A DNA stretch of 64,000 bases from Enterobacter hormaechei ATCC 49162. Its GTDB lineage: Bacteria > Pseudomonadota > Gammaproteobacteria > Enterobacterales > Enterobacteriaceae. The translations under genes were made by a program, and so were the position numbers. Numbering within the stretch: position 1 is the stretch's first letter; every line of letters starts with the position of its first letter. The stretch is taken from positions 2,852,001-2,916,000 of the forward strand of contig NZ_MKEQ01000001.1 in the NCBI RefSeq assembly GCF_001875655.1, written 5' to 3'. Of this stretch, positions 38,092 to 47,035 are shown one piece after another. The notes below the pieces were generated by a model that saw nothing but the letters and a program-made list of their open reading frames with translations, did no database searches and had not been told where the DNA came from.

Positions 38092-41033
<2,942 letters not shown>

Positions 41034-41180
41034 TTTTAAATCCTCATGAAACAACCTGTAGGGGATAGAGGCCTTTATGGTTTTTTACTGGCCTGAGGTG
41101 AGCATAAGAACTTACTGATACGGCAACATGGTATGCCGCTGCGATTCGTGATCGCATTCATGGTTTTATTTTGACCAATC

Positions 41181-41254
41181 AGGTCTACTTTTTGCTGTAA
41201 ATATGGACATGTCAGGACACAATCCACGCCCTGATAAGGGCAGAGAGGTCTACT
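41181..41254. promoter_or_regulatory. Candidate YidP operators between glvC and yidP
   Basis: AGGTCTACT occurs twice (41181-41189 and 41246-41254), the second just ahead of the yidP start codon. Between them is the palindrome GACATGTC (41206-41213). AGGTCTA resembles half-sites of HutC-type GntR regulators. The TGCGATTCGTGATCGCA palindrome at about 41131-41147 may be a CRP-like or second regulatory site. Assignment is inference. Confidence 0.5.
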
Positions 41255-41255
41255 G

Positions 41256-41999
41256 GTGATCTACAAATCAATTGCCGACAGATTGCGGCTGCGGCTGAAC
41301 TCGTCGGACTACAACATCGGCAGCCCGCTGCCCGGCGAAAAAGCGCTGGCGCAGGAGTTCGGCGTGGCGCGAATGACCATTCGAAAAGCGTTAGACCTGC
41401 TTGTGAGTTGGGGGCTGGTTGAGCGGCGGCACGGCAGCGGGACGTTTGTCTCGCGCAAAGACGTTCATCATGAAACGACTAACCTGACCGGGCTGGTGGA
41501 GGTGCTGCGTCAGCAGGGAAAAGAGGTGCAGAGCAAGGTGTTGCAGTTTGAAGTGATGCCCGCGCCGCCCGCCATCGCCAGCCAGCTGCGGATTCAGGTT
41601 GATGAGCGGATCTATTTTTCAAGGCGGGTGCGTTACGTGGACGGCAAACCGCTGATGCTAGAGGACAGCTTTATGCCGGTGAAGCTGTTTCGCAATCTTT
41701 CCCTGGCGCATCTCGAAGGGTCTAAGTTTGATTACATCGAGAAGGAGTGTGGGATCACTATCAGCGGCAATTACGAGAGTCTGACGCCGGTGCTGGCAGA
41801 TAAACAGCTGGCCGGTTATATGAATGTGCCGGAACAGACGCCGCTGCTGCGCATCACCTCCCTTTCCTACAGCGACAGCGGCGAGTTCCTCAATTATTCC
41901 GTGATGTTCCGGAACACCAGCGATTACCAGGTGGACTACCATCTGCGGCGCATCCACCCGGAAGACTTATTAACCCATCCCCCGGAACAGCAACGGTAA
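41256..41999 (+). CDS. yidP: GntR/HutC-family regulator YidP
   Basis: Regulator of 247 residues. The GntR HTH is at about residues 8-70 (PGEKALAQEFGVARMTIRKALDLL, WGLVERRHGSGTFV), followed by a UTRA ligand domain (IYFSRRVRYVDGKPLMLEDSFMP). It matches E. coli YidP. The start is GTG. It is divergent from the glv-type PTS operon and probably represses it until a sugar phosphate binds. Confidence 0.92.
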   Translation: MIYKSIADRLRLRLNSSDYNIGSPLPGEKALAQEFGVARMTIRKALDLLVSWGLVERRHGSGTFVSRKDVHHETTNLTGLVEVLRQQGKEVQSKVLQFEVMPAPPAIASQLRIQVDERIYFSRRVRYVDGKPLMLEDSFMPVKLFRNLSLAHLEGSKFDYIEKECGITISGNYESLTPVLADKQLAGYMNVPEQTPLLRITSLSYSDSGEFLNYSVMFRNTSDYQVDYHLRRIHPEDLLTHPPEQQR

Positions 42000-42014: not shown

Positions 42015-43430
42015 TTATATCAGCGTGCGCAATTCATCGAAGGAAAGAATACGGCCACGATAGCCCAACCCGGAATCAATATTGTATATCGACACCCCAA
42101 TATTATTGTCGGTATCGAAGACGAAGAAGGACTGCTCGGCGCCAAAATAGACGTTGAAATTATCATCTCCCACGTCAAATACCGATGAAGTAAGCTCGCT
42201 TCGCTGACCAGTAATGTGGAACTGATCCAGCCGCTGAACCGTCCTGGCAGATAAATCAACGGCCAGCACGGTGGGTAAAGAATCCAGTGCCGCCGCAGTA
42301 TAAGCGACTGGCGGCGATTCAATAATACGCACCAGTTCATTCCCCTTTTCATCGGCACAGGAGTTATTGTTAAACAGAGAAATGACGATTTTATTATCAC
42401 CTCGCCAGGCATCATATTGACGATTTTTGGTAATAAACACGGCGTGCTCACCGTCAGGATAGGTGAAATTATCGGCATCGACCACGCTCAGATTGAGCGC
42501 GCTATTGAGGGTGGGGAAAGCGGGATTATCAATAATCCACTCTGGATCGCCCGAGTCAATATTAAGGCCAATAATGGTACAGCTTGAGCGGGAATTGATC
42601 ATGAGCTGATTGGTTTGCGCGATATACTCCAGGCTGTTGAAATGTACGTCATTGGTATCGGTATTATCCAGCACCGTGGCCCCCATAAACTCGGCGGTGT
42701 AGTCACGCTGCCAGAGCAGCGTTCCGCTGGCGAGATCGTACCGGTAGAGCATGCACTCCAGCTTTTGCTGGTCGCTCCAGCCGTCCAGCAGCGAGCCTAA
42801 CATCCACAAGTTGCCCTTGCCGTCGGTTGTCAGGTCGTGGTGAAAGCCATAGCCCGCCGGTGCGGCAAGGGTTTGTGTTACCTTTCCGGCAAGGTTAAAG
42901 CGGTAGAGCGTGGGGGCAAAGGCATGTTTATCGGGATCGTAGGTTTCACTGGCCAGCGCTGACCACAGCGAATTGTCGATAATTTTTAAATTACCGTACA
43001 TCCACGGGAACAGACCCGTAATGCGTAAATCGCCGTTAATATCGTAGCCATTCCACTCGCTGGTCACAAACCAGCCCTGACCCAGCGTATTATCCGCCAT
43101 GTCCCGATCGTCAATATTGATGGCTAACGTTAAGGCCACATCGCCATAATCCTGGCCCTCAGTGGAGATCGTGAAAACAGAAGTTTGTGTCTCTCCTTGT
43201 TCCGTGTAAAGCGTCAGCGTCACGGTATTGGCATAATTCGCATAGAGGCCGACAACGGTGACTTCGGGATTAACAGCGTAACGATCGCTGGCATAATAAA
43301 AATCCACATTACTGGACTTACCATGAACGGTATAATTAAATTTTACCGGCTGATAATAATCTATTTTAATAAGCGCACTGAGCTTATTCTTATCATAAGG
43401 GTTAACAATTACTGTAGAGGTTGCTTTCAT
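42015..43430 (-). CDS. Aryl-sulfate sulfotransferase-like protein without signal peptide
   Basis: Protein of 471 residues with repeated beta-propeller-type segments, similar to the AssT family (PLP-free aryl sulfotransferases). Family-like positions are H197-H198 in GYGFHHDL, H263 in DVHFNSLEYI and R281 in LMINSRSSC. I could not see the equivalent of the histidine that carries the sulfate in AssT. The first 100 residues look like a beta-sandwich. Known AssT proteins are periplasmic; this one has no signal peptide, so it is cytosolic or the function has changed. It is divergent from the PTS-sulfatase operon, and convergent with yidP. Confidence 0.65.
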   Translation of the reverse strand: MKATSTVIVNPYDKNKLSALIKIDYYQPVKFNYTVHGKSSNVDFYYASDRYAVNPEVTVVGLYANYANTVTLTLYTEQGETQTSVFTISTEGQDYGDVALTLAINIDDRDMADNTLGQGWFVTSEWNGYDINGDLRITGLFPWMYGNLKIIDNSLWSALASETYDPDKHAFAPTLYRFNLAGKVTQTLAAPAGYGFHHDLTTDGKGNLWMLGSLLDGWSDQQKLECMLYRYDLASGTLLWQRDYTAEFMGATVLDNTDTNDVHFNSLEYIAQTNQLMINSRSSCTIIGLNIDSGDPEWIIDNPAFPTLNSALNLSVVDADNFTYPDGEHAVFITKNRQYDAWRGDNKIVISLFNNNSCADEKGNELVRIIESPPVAYTAAALDSLPTVLAVDLSARTVQRLDQFHITGQRSELTSSVFDVGDDNFNVYFGAEQSFFVFDTDNNIGVSIYNIDSGLGYRGRILSFDELRTLI

Positions 43431-43863
43431 TACAGAGTCCTTAGTTTGTGCTTAACATCGCTGGTGTATTGACGTCTTCACCCACAAACCTATACCTCGT
43501 TTTAATTGTATTTTGTGGAATAGCACACAAATAGATCGTTTTTTGCAAATTCATACTAATTAATCAGCAATAAAAACACTAAAATAAATCATTACACATA
43601 AATATATTCATCGATGAAATATAATCCCGATGAATACACGTTACGCCTGTTATTCACATTCATAGATTATATATAAATAATTAATTAAAAAATTCCAATA
43701 AATCACTGGGGTTTATAGCTTGCTATTTTTGCAAAGACACTCACAAAAAATCATATTTAATCTTCTAATGACTAATTTTGATTACTAGTATTCATCCCGT
43801 CATCAACAGCAGTGAACGGGATGTAATTATCTGGATAAAAATATCACGGAGGTTAAGTCGAAC
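43431..43863. other. AT-rich divergent promoter region
   Basis: About 430 bases, strongly AT-rich, between the sulfotransferase-like gene and the PTS-sulfatase operon. TTCATCGATGAA (43607-43618) is a perfect 12-bp palindrome; related CGATGAAT and ATTCATC half-sites occur near 43630 and 43791. They could be operator sites, but no regulator gene is adjacent. The composition is unlike the flanks and suggests H-NS-type silencing or recent acquisition. Confidence 0.45.
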
Positions 43864-45189
43864 ATGTTTTCTGAATTTATTGCCATAATACAATCTTTTT
43901 TGACCGAGCCTGCAATCTTAATAGGCTTGCTGGTCGGTCTGGGGTACGCACTCGATAAAAAATCACCGATAAAAATTATTACCGGCATGGTAAGCGCCAT
44001 GGTGGGATTAATGATGGTGTTATTCGGTGGTTTTCAATTCTCGGCAACGTTTAAACCTGTGGCTGATGCTGTCAGCCAGTCTTATGGTATTCATGGCTAC
44101 CTGATGGATTCCTACGCCATGAAAGCGGCGACCCAAATTGCGCTTGGCGATAATTTCGGTTTTGTCGGCTATGTGTTTGTGCTGGCCTTTTTTACCAACC
44201 TGCTGCTGGTGCTGCTGGGCCGTTATACGCGGGTCAAAGGCATCTTCCTGACCGGTAATACCGGCGTATCCCACTCTCAGGCTGTGCTGTGGCTCATCGT
44301 CTTCTGGCTGGGCTTAGGCTGGGTCCCCTCAATTATTATCGCCGGGATATTAACCGGGTTGTTCTGGGCTTTCGCCACGACGCTGATCGCGAAACCCATC
44401 GCCAAAATTACCAATAATGCGGGCTTTACCATCGCCCATAATCAGATGCTGGGGATCTGGTTTTTTTCTAAATTCGCCCATTTGTTCGGCGATGCGGAAA
44501 AACAGGATGCCGAGAATATGAAACTGCCCGGATGGCTGGCGATTTTTAACCATAACGTCACCTCTATCGCAATCGTCATGACGCTGTTTGTCGGCGGTTT
44601 TTTACTGACAACCGGGATTGATAACGTCCAGGCGATGGCGAAAGGCAAGCCCTGGTATATCTATATTATTAACCTCGGGCTGCAATTCTCCATGTATATG
44701 GTGATTTTGCTTCAGGGCGTGCGCATGATGGTCGGCGAAATTAATGCCTCTTTTAAAGGCTGGCAAGACCGTCTTATTCCTGACGCCATTCCGGCTGTCG
44801 ACGTCGCGGCGCTGCTCCCCTTCTCACCGAATGCCGCGACGCTGGGATTTATCTTCTGTACCTTCGGCACCATATTTTCGATGGGTATTCTGCTTATCAC
44901 CAAAAGTCCCATTATGGTGTTGCCGGGTTTTGTGCCGCTCTTTTTCTCCGGCGGTCCTATTGGCGTATTAGCCAACCGATTAGGTGGTTACCGCTCCGTT
45001 ATTATTTGCACCTTTCTGCTGGGAATGATTCAAACCTTTGGCACGATCTGGGCCATTCCGCTTACCGGCCTTGCTGCCGAGGGAGTGGGCTGGACCGGTA
45101 TTTTTGACTGGGCGACATTATGGCCCGCCATTTGTGAAATCCTTAAGTTTATTGCAGCCACATTCCACCTTGGGCCTTACGCGGGCTAA
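43864..45189 (+). CDS. Ascorbate-type PTS IIC permease
   Basis: Membrane protein of 441 residues of the UlaA/SgaT (L-ascorbate) PTS family, about 11 helices. Segments VKGIFLTGNTGVSHSQAVLW and GFTIAHNQMLGIWF fit the family, as does the C-terminal ALLPFSPNAATLGFIFC. GGAGG lies 11 bases before the ATG. It is followed by IIB and a sulfatase in one operon. The substrate is probably a small acidic or sulfated sugar; no IIA is seen here. Confidence 0.85.
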   Translation: MFSEFIAIIQSFLTEPAILIGLLVGLGYALDKKSPIKIITGMVSAMVGLMMVLFGGFQFSATFKPVADAVSQSYGIHGYLMDSYAMKAATQIALGDNFGFVGYVFVLAFFTNLLLVLLGRYTRVKGIFLTGNTGVSHSQAVLWLIVFWLGLGWVPSIIIAGILTGLFWAFATTLIAKPIAKITNNAGFTIAHNQMLGIWFFSKFAHLFGDAEKQDAENMKLPGWLAIFNHNVTSIAIVMTLFVGGFLLTTGIDNVQAMAKGKPWYIYIINLGLQFSMYMVILLQGVRMMVGEINASFKGWQDRLIPDAIPAVDVAALLPFSPNAATLGFIFCTFGTIFSMGILLITKSPIMVLPGFVPLFFSGGPIGVLANRLGGYRSVIICTFLLGMIQTFGTIWAIPLTGLAAEGVGWTGIFDWATLWPAICEILKFIAATFHLGPYAG

Positions 45190-45217
45190 ATCCCTTCACC
45201 TTTAAAAGGAACGTGTG

Positions 45218-45541
45218 ATGAAAGAAAGAATTAATATTCTGTTTGTTTGCGGCTATGGCGTTGGTAGTAGCGTAATGTTACAGACGGTCGTGAAAAAAGC
45301 GTTAGCAAAATACAATATTGCTTTTGAGATGGAGCATACCGCCGCGGGCGAGGTGGGCGGGTTTACCGACTGGGCCGATATCTATGCAATATCGAAAAAA
45401 CTCATTGATGTGGTCAGTCTCGATCCGCGTCACGGGCAATATCTCATCCCGATCGAAAATATTATGGACGGCGAAACGATCGGCAAACAGATCTACGCGG
45501 TTGTAGAAGAACATTTTCCGCATCTGATCCCGTCTCGCTAA
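45218..45541 (+). CDS. Ascorbate-type PTS IIB component
   Basis: Phosphocarrier of 107 residues. The phosphorylated cysteine is in LFVCGYGVGSSVMLQ, the UlaB-type loop. ATG at 45218 has AAGGA 8 bases upstream; a GTG one codon earlier opens the same frame. It pairs with the IIC 28 bases upstream, and the sulfatase starts 9 bases after it. The IIA partner must be encoded elsewhere. Confidence 0.88.
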   Translation: MKERINILFVCGYGVGSSVMLQTVVKKALAKYNIAFEMEHTAAGEVGGFTDWADIYAISKKLIDVVSLDPRHGQYLIPIENIMDGETIGKQIYAVVEEHFPHLIPSR

Positions 45542-45550
45542 GGAGCGCAG

Positions 45551-47035
45551 ATGAAAGCCATTATTCTGCTCTTTGATAGTCTGAATAAACATTATCTGCC
45601 GCCCTACGGAGACGTTATTACCCAGGCGCCAAATTTCCAGCGTCTGGCGGCGCACGCGGTAACGTTTAATAACAGCTATGTCGGCAGTATGCCGTGTATG
45701 CCCGCCCGCCGTGAATTACACACCGGGCGGTACAACTTCCTCCATCGCGAATGGGGGCCGCTGGAACCGTTTGACGACTCCATGCCGGAGTTGCTGAAAA
45801 AAGCGGGCGTGTATACGCACCTTATCAGCGATCATCTGCATTACTGGGAGGATGGCGGAGGTAATTACCATAATCGCTACAACTCCTGGGAGATCGTGCG
45901 CGGTCAGGAGGGCGATAGCTGGAAAGGAAGCGTTGCCGATCCGGTTATCCCGGAGGTGCTGCGCGTACCGCAGAAACAGACCGGCGGCGGCGTGTCCGGG
46001 CTGTGGCGCCAGGACTGGGTAAATCGCGATTATATCCGCGAGGAGGCCGATTTCCCGCAAACTCGCGTCTTTGCTGCTGGCTGCGAGTTTATCGAAAAAA
46101 ACCATTCGCAAGATAACTGGCTGTTGCAGGTCGAAACCTTCGATCCGCACGAACCGTTTTACACCACCGAAGAATACCTCTCGCTGTATGAAGATCCGTG
46201 GGACGGGCCTCACTACGACTGGCCGCGCGGCAAGGTGGAGGAGAGCGCGGAGGCGGTAGAACATATTCGCTGCCGCTATCGTGCCCTGGTGTCCATGTGC
46301 GATCGCAATCTGGGCCGCATCCTTGACCTGATGGACAGTCACGATCTCTGGCGCGATACGATGCTGATCGTCGGTACCGACCATGGTTTTCTGCTGGGAG
46401 AACATGGCTGGTGGGCGAAAAATCAAATGCCGTACTACAACGAAGTGGCGAATAACCCGTTATTTATCTGGGATCCGCGCCACGCCAGGCGCGCAGAGCA
46501 GCGTGATTCGCTGGTGCAGATGATTGACTGGGCGCCGACTCTGCTGGAGTTCTTCAGGCAGCCCATTCCCGCAGACGTACAAGGGCAACCGCTAACGCCG
46601 GTTCTGCAAGATGACACGCCGGTGCGTGACGCCGCGCTGTTCGGCGTTTTCAGCGGCCACGTCAACGTCACGGACGGTCGCTACGTCTATATGCGCGCCG
46701 CGCTTCCCGGGCGTGAAAATGACATCGCGAATTACACTCTGATGCCGATTAAGATGAACACCCGCTTTGATGTGGCCGAACTGCACGCCTTAACGCTGGC
46801 GCCTCCCTTCCGTTTTACCAAGGGCGTCAGTACATTGCGCATTCCGGCCAAAGAGAAATATAAGGGGATTAATCGCACTGGCCATCTGCTGTTTGATTTA
46901 TACACCGATCCGCAGCAGTTGAACCCGATAAAGGATGACGCGATCGAAGCGCGTATGATTGCCCTGCTGGTGCGCCTGTTGCACGAGAGTGACGCGCCGG
47001 CAGAGCAGTTTGTCAGGCTGGGCTTATCCGGCTAG
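45551..47035 (+). CDS. yidJ: Cytosolic Cys-type sulfatase (YidJ-like)
   Basis: Sulfatase of 494 residues (E. coli YidJ is about the same length). The formylglycine site is C49-M-P-A-R53 in [15 protein letters not shown]; metal-binding aspartate is in LLFDSLNK and DH in [12 protein letters not shown]. No signal peptide is seen, so it acts in the cytoplasm on a substrate brought in by the upstream PTS. C49 must be matured; the radical SAM enzyme at 36200 is the likely partner. The stop codon overlaps the stop of convergent yidE by two bases. Confidence 0.88.

Follow-up and report, generated by a model that had tools for sequence, protein, structure and literature searches.

A stretch of 64,000 nucleotides from Enterobacter hormaechei ATCC 49162 (contig NZ_MKEQ01000001.1, positions 2,852,001 to 2,916,000; hereafter the window, to which all coordinates given without a locus name refer) carries at 43864-47035 three genes encoding an ascorbate-type permease (IIC) and an EIIB component (IIB) of the phosphotransferase system (PTS), followed by a sulfatase. 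We propose that these genes probably constitute an add-on module of ascorbate catabolism, which would import a sulfated ascorbate, remove its sulfate and feed the product into the ula pathway, where UlaG, UlaD, UlaE and UlaF convert L-ascorbate 6-phosphate to D-xylulose 5-phosphate. According to this scheme, IIC-IIB would take up the sulfated ascorbate, L-ascorbate 2-sulfate being the likeliest, and phosphorylate it on O6, while the unlinked ula operon would contribute UlaC as the EIIA. The cytosolic sulfatase, activated at Cys49 by an anaerobic sulfatase maturase, would then strip the sulfate to leave L-ascorbate 6-phosphate for the four Ula enzymes, and UlaR would probably co-regulate the operon through a ula-type operator element. 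A sulfated ascorbate is the suggested substrate because ula genes adjoin the set in some genomes, because UlaG co-occurs with it, because sulfatases of the family also lie with TctABC transporters and ula genes, and because a promoter element is shared with ula. The narrower proposal, that a dedicated ascorbate 2-sulfate pathway (PTS import as the 6-phosphate, desulfation, ula enzymes) has spread horizontally in Enterobacteriaceae and Firmicutes, seems to us evenly poised between true and false.

The three genes and their conservation

The first gene (43864-45189, + strand) encodes a protein of 441 residues with an EIIC-GAT domain (PF03611, 327.6 bits). It scores 902.6 bits with the NCBIfam equivalog NF009550, above the cut-off of 583, and 325.1 bits with the ascorbate IIC equivalog NF006919, below the cut-off of 380, and is thus not UlaA itself. 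It matches the UlaA structure 4rp8 with an E value of 5e-94. From its sequence we assign IIC to the EIIC-GAT permeases related to UlaA, in the L-ascorbate PTS family (TC 4.A.7), as the sequence-only reading of the window had done. The IIB gene (45218-45541, + strand; PF02302, PTS_IIB, 40.5 bits) begins with an ATG 28 bases after IIC, an alternative GTG start lying at 45215; its two NCBIfam matches, to an ascorbate IIBC model and an ascorbate IIB model, are under cut-off. After a gap of 9 bases comes the gene of the sulfatase (45551-47035, + strand), a protein of 494 residues with a PF00884 domain (109.7 bits against a threshold of 25). Coordinates and domains therefore agree with the earlier view that the three genes form one operon, and the operon indeed contains no IIA.

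The sulfatase contains the segment C49-M-P-A-R53, which we take to be the Cys-type C-x-P-x-R sulfatase signature. C49 and R53 are unchanged in 37 of 37 aligned sulfatase rows, and also in every covering row of a second alignment. The AlphaFold (AF2) model of the protein (pLDDT 85.1, pTM 0.91) has the S1 sulfatase fold, and its best matches among solved structures are S1 sulfatases and phosphonate monoester hydrolases. We thus place the protein, on sequence and model, in family S1 of the type I (formylglycine) sulfatases, and hydrolysis of sulfate esters is predicted. Because the N-terminus forms the first beta strand of the model (residues 2-8), a signal peptide is unlikely and the enzyme is predicted to be cytosolic; the same had been claimed from the sequence, and it is the model that speaks for it here, no signal-peptide program having been run. 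Two anaerobic sulfatase maturases are encoded in the E. hormaechei genome (TIGR03942, 494.9 and 505.2 bits against a cut-off of 349.45).

A scan of a species-genome collection yielded 48 sulfatase loci, 31 of which are close to the window's (at least 62% identity). IIC-IIB lies directly upstream on the same strand in 26 of these 31, 20 recognized by gaps between open reading frames (ORFs) and 6 by tblastn, one of the latter with its IIC cut by a contig end. The linkage on which the sequence-only reading depended is thus kept. The gaps within the set are mostly short, the loci L053 and L055 each having one of 244 and 330 bases, respectively. Antisense ORFs caused five loci (L046, L047, L057, L068 and L084) to be missed in the clustering of neighbours, the first three being regained by tblastn. 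Carriers belong to the Enterobacteriaceae and to several Firmicute groups. The sulfatases form one clade (32 rows, SH-aLRT 100) in a quick tree that leaves out L046, L047, L057 and rows longer than 610 residues or below 38% identity, and the IICs form one separate clade (27 rows, 100/100). A search of 5,426 E. coli genomes found a match in 546, and in 545 it covers at least 80% of the three genes. The three E. coli genomes that were opened (L086, L230, L231) have the set between rlmC and artJ, unlike the site in the window, and the other Escherichia and the Salmonella loci show the same flanking ORF clusters as the E. coli ones. Sequence comparison thus indicates that the three-gene set is conserved and mobile. 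Among 30 E. coli carriers taken at even steps, many are cattle, O157:H7 or O145 isolates.

Association with the ascorbate genes

In three Bacilli loci the set stands beside the genes of ascorbate catabolism. The Neobacillus locus L078 has the order IIA-IIC-IIB-sulfatase-UlaG-IIB-like-UlaD-UlaE-UlaF-HPr; its UlaG scores 653 bits against a cut-off of 306, and the only EIIC-GAT match of this genome is the neighbour of the sulfatase. An opposite-strand gene upstream in L078 has NCBIfam matches that are all under cut-off and fall in other families; these families presumably belong to the formylglycine-generating-enzyme superfamily, a resemblance that is our own reading. In Bacillus SD088 (L050), UlaF-E-D-G-C and a DeoR-type gene are divergent from IIC-IIB-sulfatase, and in Bacillus FJAT-50079 (L055/L201), UlaG-D-E-F is followed by two IIC-IIB-sulfatase sets. 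The IICs of L050 and L078 form the sister group of the enterobacterial ones (100/99).

Of 28 carrier genomes tested, a set without L049, L051 and L057, 26 have a UlaG above cut-off. In 7 of the 28 (L050, L055, L056, L062, L063, L067 and L078), UlaG and the sulfatase share a contig and are no more than about 15 kb apart. For comparison, UlaG is present in 28 of 299 genomes of a Firmicute family sample and in 103 of 295 genomes of a second family sample. All close carriers in these samples have UlaG, namely the four of the first (G303, G310, G314 and G322, all of them counted in the 28 as well) and the five of the second (G000, G045, G152, G179 and G260). The E. hormaechei genome itself contains UlaG (712 bits), UlaA, UlaB, UlaC and UlaR above the equivalog cut-offs and UlaD, UlaE and UlaF above the subfamily cut-offs, UlaD being under its own equivalog cut-off (270 against 294). 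By these scores it holds a complete ula set (ulaG, ulaABCDEF) with ulaR, unlinked to the operon.

The association extends to a transporter of another type. In two Firmicute genomes, TctABC-UlaG-UlaF occurs with a sulfatase of the same clade (64 and 63% identity) and a GntR-type gene, without IIC (L222, L223). The same two genomes have a second sulfatase (52%, outside the clade) between TctABC and FGGY kinase-UlaG-UlaE-UlaF (L206, L224). Pfam matches support TctC, TctA and the FGGY kinase at L206 and TctA at L222. Such an arrangement would be expected of an import without phosphorylation, followed by desulfation, a kinase and then the lactonase. Uroporphyrinogen-decarboxylase-family proteins are found beside these TctABC-ula-sulfatase clusters (L206, 2600-3616; L222, 15626-16687); these putative enzymes possibly transfer a methyl group from a methylated ascorbate.

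The promoter of the operon points in the same direction. From the two ula sites of the E. hormaechei genome we derived an element pattern, AATCACAANNAATCA and TTTGATTA being common to both ula operator regions. The window has a single match to it with at most one mismatch, 110 bases before IIC, where 0.03 would be expected: ACTCACAAAAAATCA (43739-43753, + strand), which differs from AATCACAANNAATCA at one position. A right half-site, TTTTGATTA, follows at 43776-43784 (+ strand). All 10 enterobacterial operon promoters inspected have the left element, differing from one of its forms at no more than one position; TTTTGATTA occurs within the same limit in 9 of them, as well as at both E. hormaechei ula sites. 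When one mismatch is allowed, the left element has ten matches in the whole E. hormaechei genome, of which three are at ula and six at other places. Nine carrier genomes together contain 11 exact copies of AATCACAANNAATCA, which coordinates assign to ula (5, two of them the source sites) or to the operon (6, in six of the nine genomes), and the reversed element used as control has 0 matches. By its sequence, the operon thus carries the ula operator element; binding of UlaR is predicted, and UlaR probably co-regulates the operon. Since the promoter element is shared and a full ula set, UlaR included, is encoded in the genome, the module would probably borrow both UlaR and UlaC from it. The earlier statement that no regulator is nearby consequently holds only in part: there is a GntR-family gene at 41256-41999, and one element of the promoter recurs at the ula operators of the genome.

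Permease pocket and alternative substrates

We compared the ascorbate-contact residues of UlaA, as given in the part of PMC6048161 available, with the sulfatase-linked IIC clade, L200 being in neither group. Contacts H194, R288, D314 and F362 are unchanged, while S59 is replaced by G, H135 by N (one Q), I136 by T, A or S, Q139 by S or A and Q195 by N; N135 also occurs in one ula-operon permease. These mostly smaller side chains in the pocket would suit a bulkier ligand. A second permease type has N87, K139 and N410 and adjoins either a different sulfatase (L045, 12336-15425; L055, 2692-5908; L197) or an arylsulfotransferase (L058, 9687-14383). It lies near ula genes in L055 and L197, and its pocket tests gave p values of 0.001 to 0.06 on four sequences only. 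With this second permease type and the TctABC-linked versions, the proposed ascorbate 2-sulfate pathway may have arisen more than once. In the sulfatase, R226 never varies among the 27 clade rows that are PTS-linked or unassigned, and the TctABC-linked L222 and L223 have S or C at this position (alignment without the broken L082 and the duplicate L201, with L205 set apart). This pattern occurs in 2 of 166 invariant columns, the other being E466, and in 0 to 4 columns for five other sister pairs, and is no more than suggestive of R226 as a reader of the phosphate.

Several observations weigh against a sulfated-ascorbate module. Five of the 31 close loci have no visible immediate IIC-IIB: in L064 an IIB stands at the edge of the locus, in L052 the sulfatase is followed by IIC-IIB after about 2.4 kb, L049 has none, and L062 and L063 carry another transporter instead. 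The ula genes are not adjacent in most carriers, including all enterobacterial ones. The carriers are related, so that the 26 of 28 with UlaG are not independent counts, and the UlaG background covers two family samples, not Bacilli. Among the 28, G305 lacks a UlaG match and G302 has partial matches only, despite two ORFs labelled UlaG-like in its locus annotation. At a looser sulfatase threshold (E at most 1e-60), the carriers with UlaG fall to 11 of 25 and 14 of 22 in the two samples, and the UlaG link therefore holds for the close clade and not for the wide family. As to the promoter element, the window's operon copy deviates by one mismatch, as do those of two of the other eight carriers. 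Of 107 exact copies in the 295 family genomes, 38 are no more than 700 bases from UlaG, the operon accounts for 4, and the remaining 65 are at neither; the reversed control has 12 matches, and an exact copy stands at ula in only 30 of the 103 genomes with UlaG. In the permease, the differences from UlaA had been expected to fall mainly at the ascorbate contacts. Of 428 columns, 48 are disjoint, and these include 3 of an 11-residue pocket set (p 0.11) and 4 of a 13-residue set (p 0.047); a second test gave p 0.39 to 0.54. The pocket changes are thus not enriched over general divergence, and we did not use them as proof.

The sequence-only reading had suggested that the PTS imports a sulfated acidic sugar, and gave ascorbate 2-sulfate and a sulfated uronate as examples. 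The evidence supports this proposal and, at the level of sequence, favours the ascorbate option over the uronate. The same logic of PTS and sulfatase could apply to another sulfated acidic sugar or lactone, such as a sulfated uronate, the ula link being incidental or partial. Relatives of the sulfatase at about 47-53% identity stand beside a Glc-type PTS IIBC (L090), a fused EIIB-EIIC PTS (L167), a major facilitator superfamily (MFS) sugar transporter (L173) or TctABC (L206), and these varied partners suggest that the wider family handles several substrates. In addition, IIC is only 31-40% identical to the ula-operon permeases and differs at several of the substrate contacts. Against this stand the joint presence of UlaG, UlaD, UlaE and UlaF next to the set in L050, L055/L201 and L078, UlaG in 26 of 28 carriers, the sulfatase and ula genes joined with a non-PTS transporter, and the promoter element shared with ula, so that we consider another sugar unlikely.

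The chemistry of the third gene product leaves two further readings, both of which we regard as very improbable. In the slightly better one, the enzyme's target on the imported sugar would be a phosphate diester or a phosphonate instead of a sulfate. Phosphonate monoester hydrolases also use formylglycine, and they are among the best structural matches. The sulfatase, however, scores far under the cut-off of the PehA model (118 against 900), and the anaerobic sulfatase maturase and putative anion exporters beside some relatives argue for a sulfate. In the other, least probable of all, sulfate would be released for assimilation and not to free a carbon source. Release of sulfate is the chemistry of the family, and use as a sulfur source was already an option in the sequence-only reading; yet the promoter element belongs to a carbon-catabolic regulon, and the exporters (TauE/SafE in L059, with the same cluster in L054, and a chromate-transporter-family protein in L053) fit sulfate as a waste product.

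A glucosinolate or glycosaminoglycan substrate, brought to mind by the part of PMC6767122 available, was discarded, as the annotated neighbour clusters contain no recurrent glycosidase or lyase that we recognized, although not every neighbour was annotated and glv genes adjoin the operon in the window itself. Another PTS-sulfatase locus (L090, 4110-10577; C1:948000-962000) is present in the E. hormaechei genome. It comprises a Glc-type IIBC, a sulfatase 49% related to that of the operon, an aldose-epimerase-like protein, an RpiR-like regulator and an anaerobic sulfatase maturase; the run IIBC-sulfatase-epimerase-RpiR recurs in 7 other loci of the family.

Neighbouring genes, related systems and significance

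Divergent from the operon lies a gene of the arylsulfate sulfotransferase family (ASST; 42015-43430, - strand; PF05935, 66.5 bits; PF17425, 59 bits), which the sequence-only reading overlooked, together with the ula link. Its segments FHHD, VHFNS, NSR and GEHA align with those of other family members, and its four catalytic-type residues, as we assume them to be assigned, are apparently kept. The protein shares its Pfam domains with AssT (3elq, 4p04; PDB match with E about 2e-4), from which it differs in having no evident signal peptide. Among enterobacterial loci, ASST adjoins the operon only in the window, in Leclercia (L038) and in Silvania (L039, where it is frameshifted). A 41% relative is in line with a 48% related sulfatase in L180. 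A core role in the module was rejected, as ASST is present in the fetched flanks of only 3 of 31 loci (L038, L039 and L058) and the ASST region has no match in the E. coli genomes; the gene is probably accessory to the operon. A title in the reference list of PMC5059643, seen in part, presents ascorbic acid 2-sulfate as an in vivo sulfate donor; that ASST might pass the sulfate of ascorbate 2-sulfate on to a phenol is an idea open to test and nothing more.

Further left (38092-41999) are a GH4-family enzyme, an alpha-glucoside PTS IIBC and the GntR regulator (glv/yidP-like), and to the right of the operon are a putative transporter, ibpB and ibpA. An E. hormaechei record has a 100% identical sulfatase in the same gene order. 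A plasmid origin, suggested by NZ_CP077309.1 (L229), a record with a 100% identical sulfatase that is labelled a 606-kb E. hormaechei plasmid, was rejected: this record carries ibpA and ibpB, looks chromosomal and is probably a piece of chromosome.

Among known systems, the operon resembles the E. coli ula regulon and its UlaABC transporter in its EIIC-GAT and separate EIIB, its promoter element, its co-occurrence with UlaG and its place beside UlaG-D-E-F in the three Bacilli loci. It differs in its separate IIC clade (100/100), its changed pocket, its lack of IIA and the added sulfatase. S. pneumoniae Hungary 19A likewise combines PTS genes, a sulfatase, a sulfatase-modifying enzyme and a TauE-family exporter (SPH1922-1929, PMC3302838), but its PTS is of the lactose type and the locus is assigned to sulphated glycans, with no ula link in the portion of that paper covered. 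The ula regulon of Sebaldella termitidis contains an inserted sulfatase gene among its cluster, for which the part of PMC3219644 available proposes no role; we compared it by description only. The S1 sulfatases FA22070 (6hhm), BT1918 (7oz8) and BT4656 (5g2v), about 22% identical to the window's, act on ulvan or host glycans according to their titles, whereas the enzyme described here is predicted to be cytosolic and is PTS-linked.

Ascorbic acid 2-sulfate is described as a vitamin C metabolite in metabolome studies of human plasma and urine (PMC11322087, available in part). The open-licence literature yielded no published bacterial example of sulfated-ascorbate import and no paper joining 'ascorbate 2-sulfate', 'sulfatase' and 'bacteria', absence there not being absence in print; in PMC5059643, among the matches listed for 'ascorbic acid 2-sulfate', sulfatase and bacteria, the compound stands only in a reference title of the part available. 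If the proposal is true, substrate, pathway and regulator would be supplied for a gene set that is annotated but unassigned and that about 10% of complete E. coli genomes and several Firmicute groups carry. The module could then also serve as a model for interpreting other PTS-sulfatase pairs, and host sulfation would not protect vitamin C from gut bacteria.

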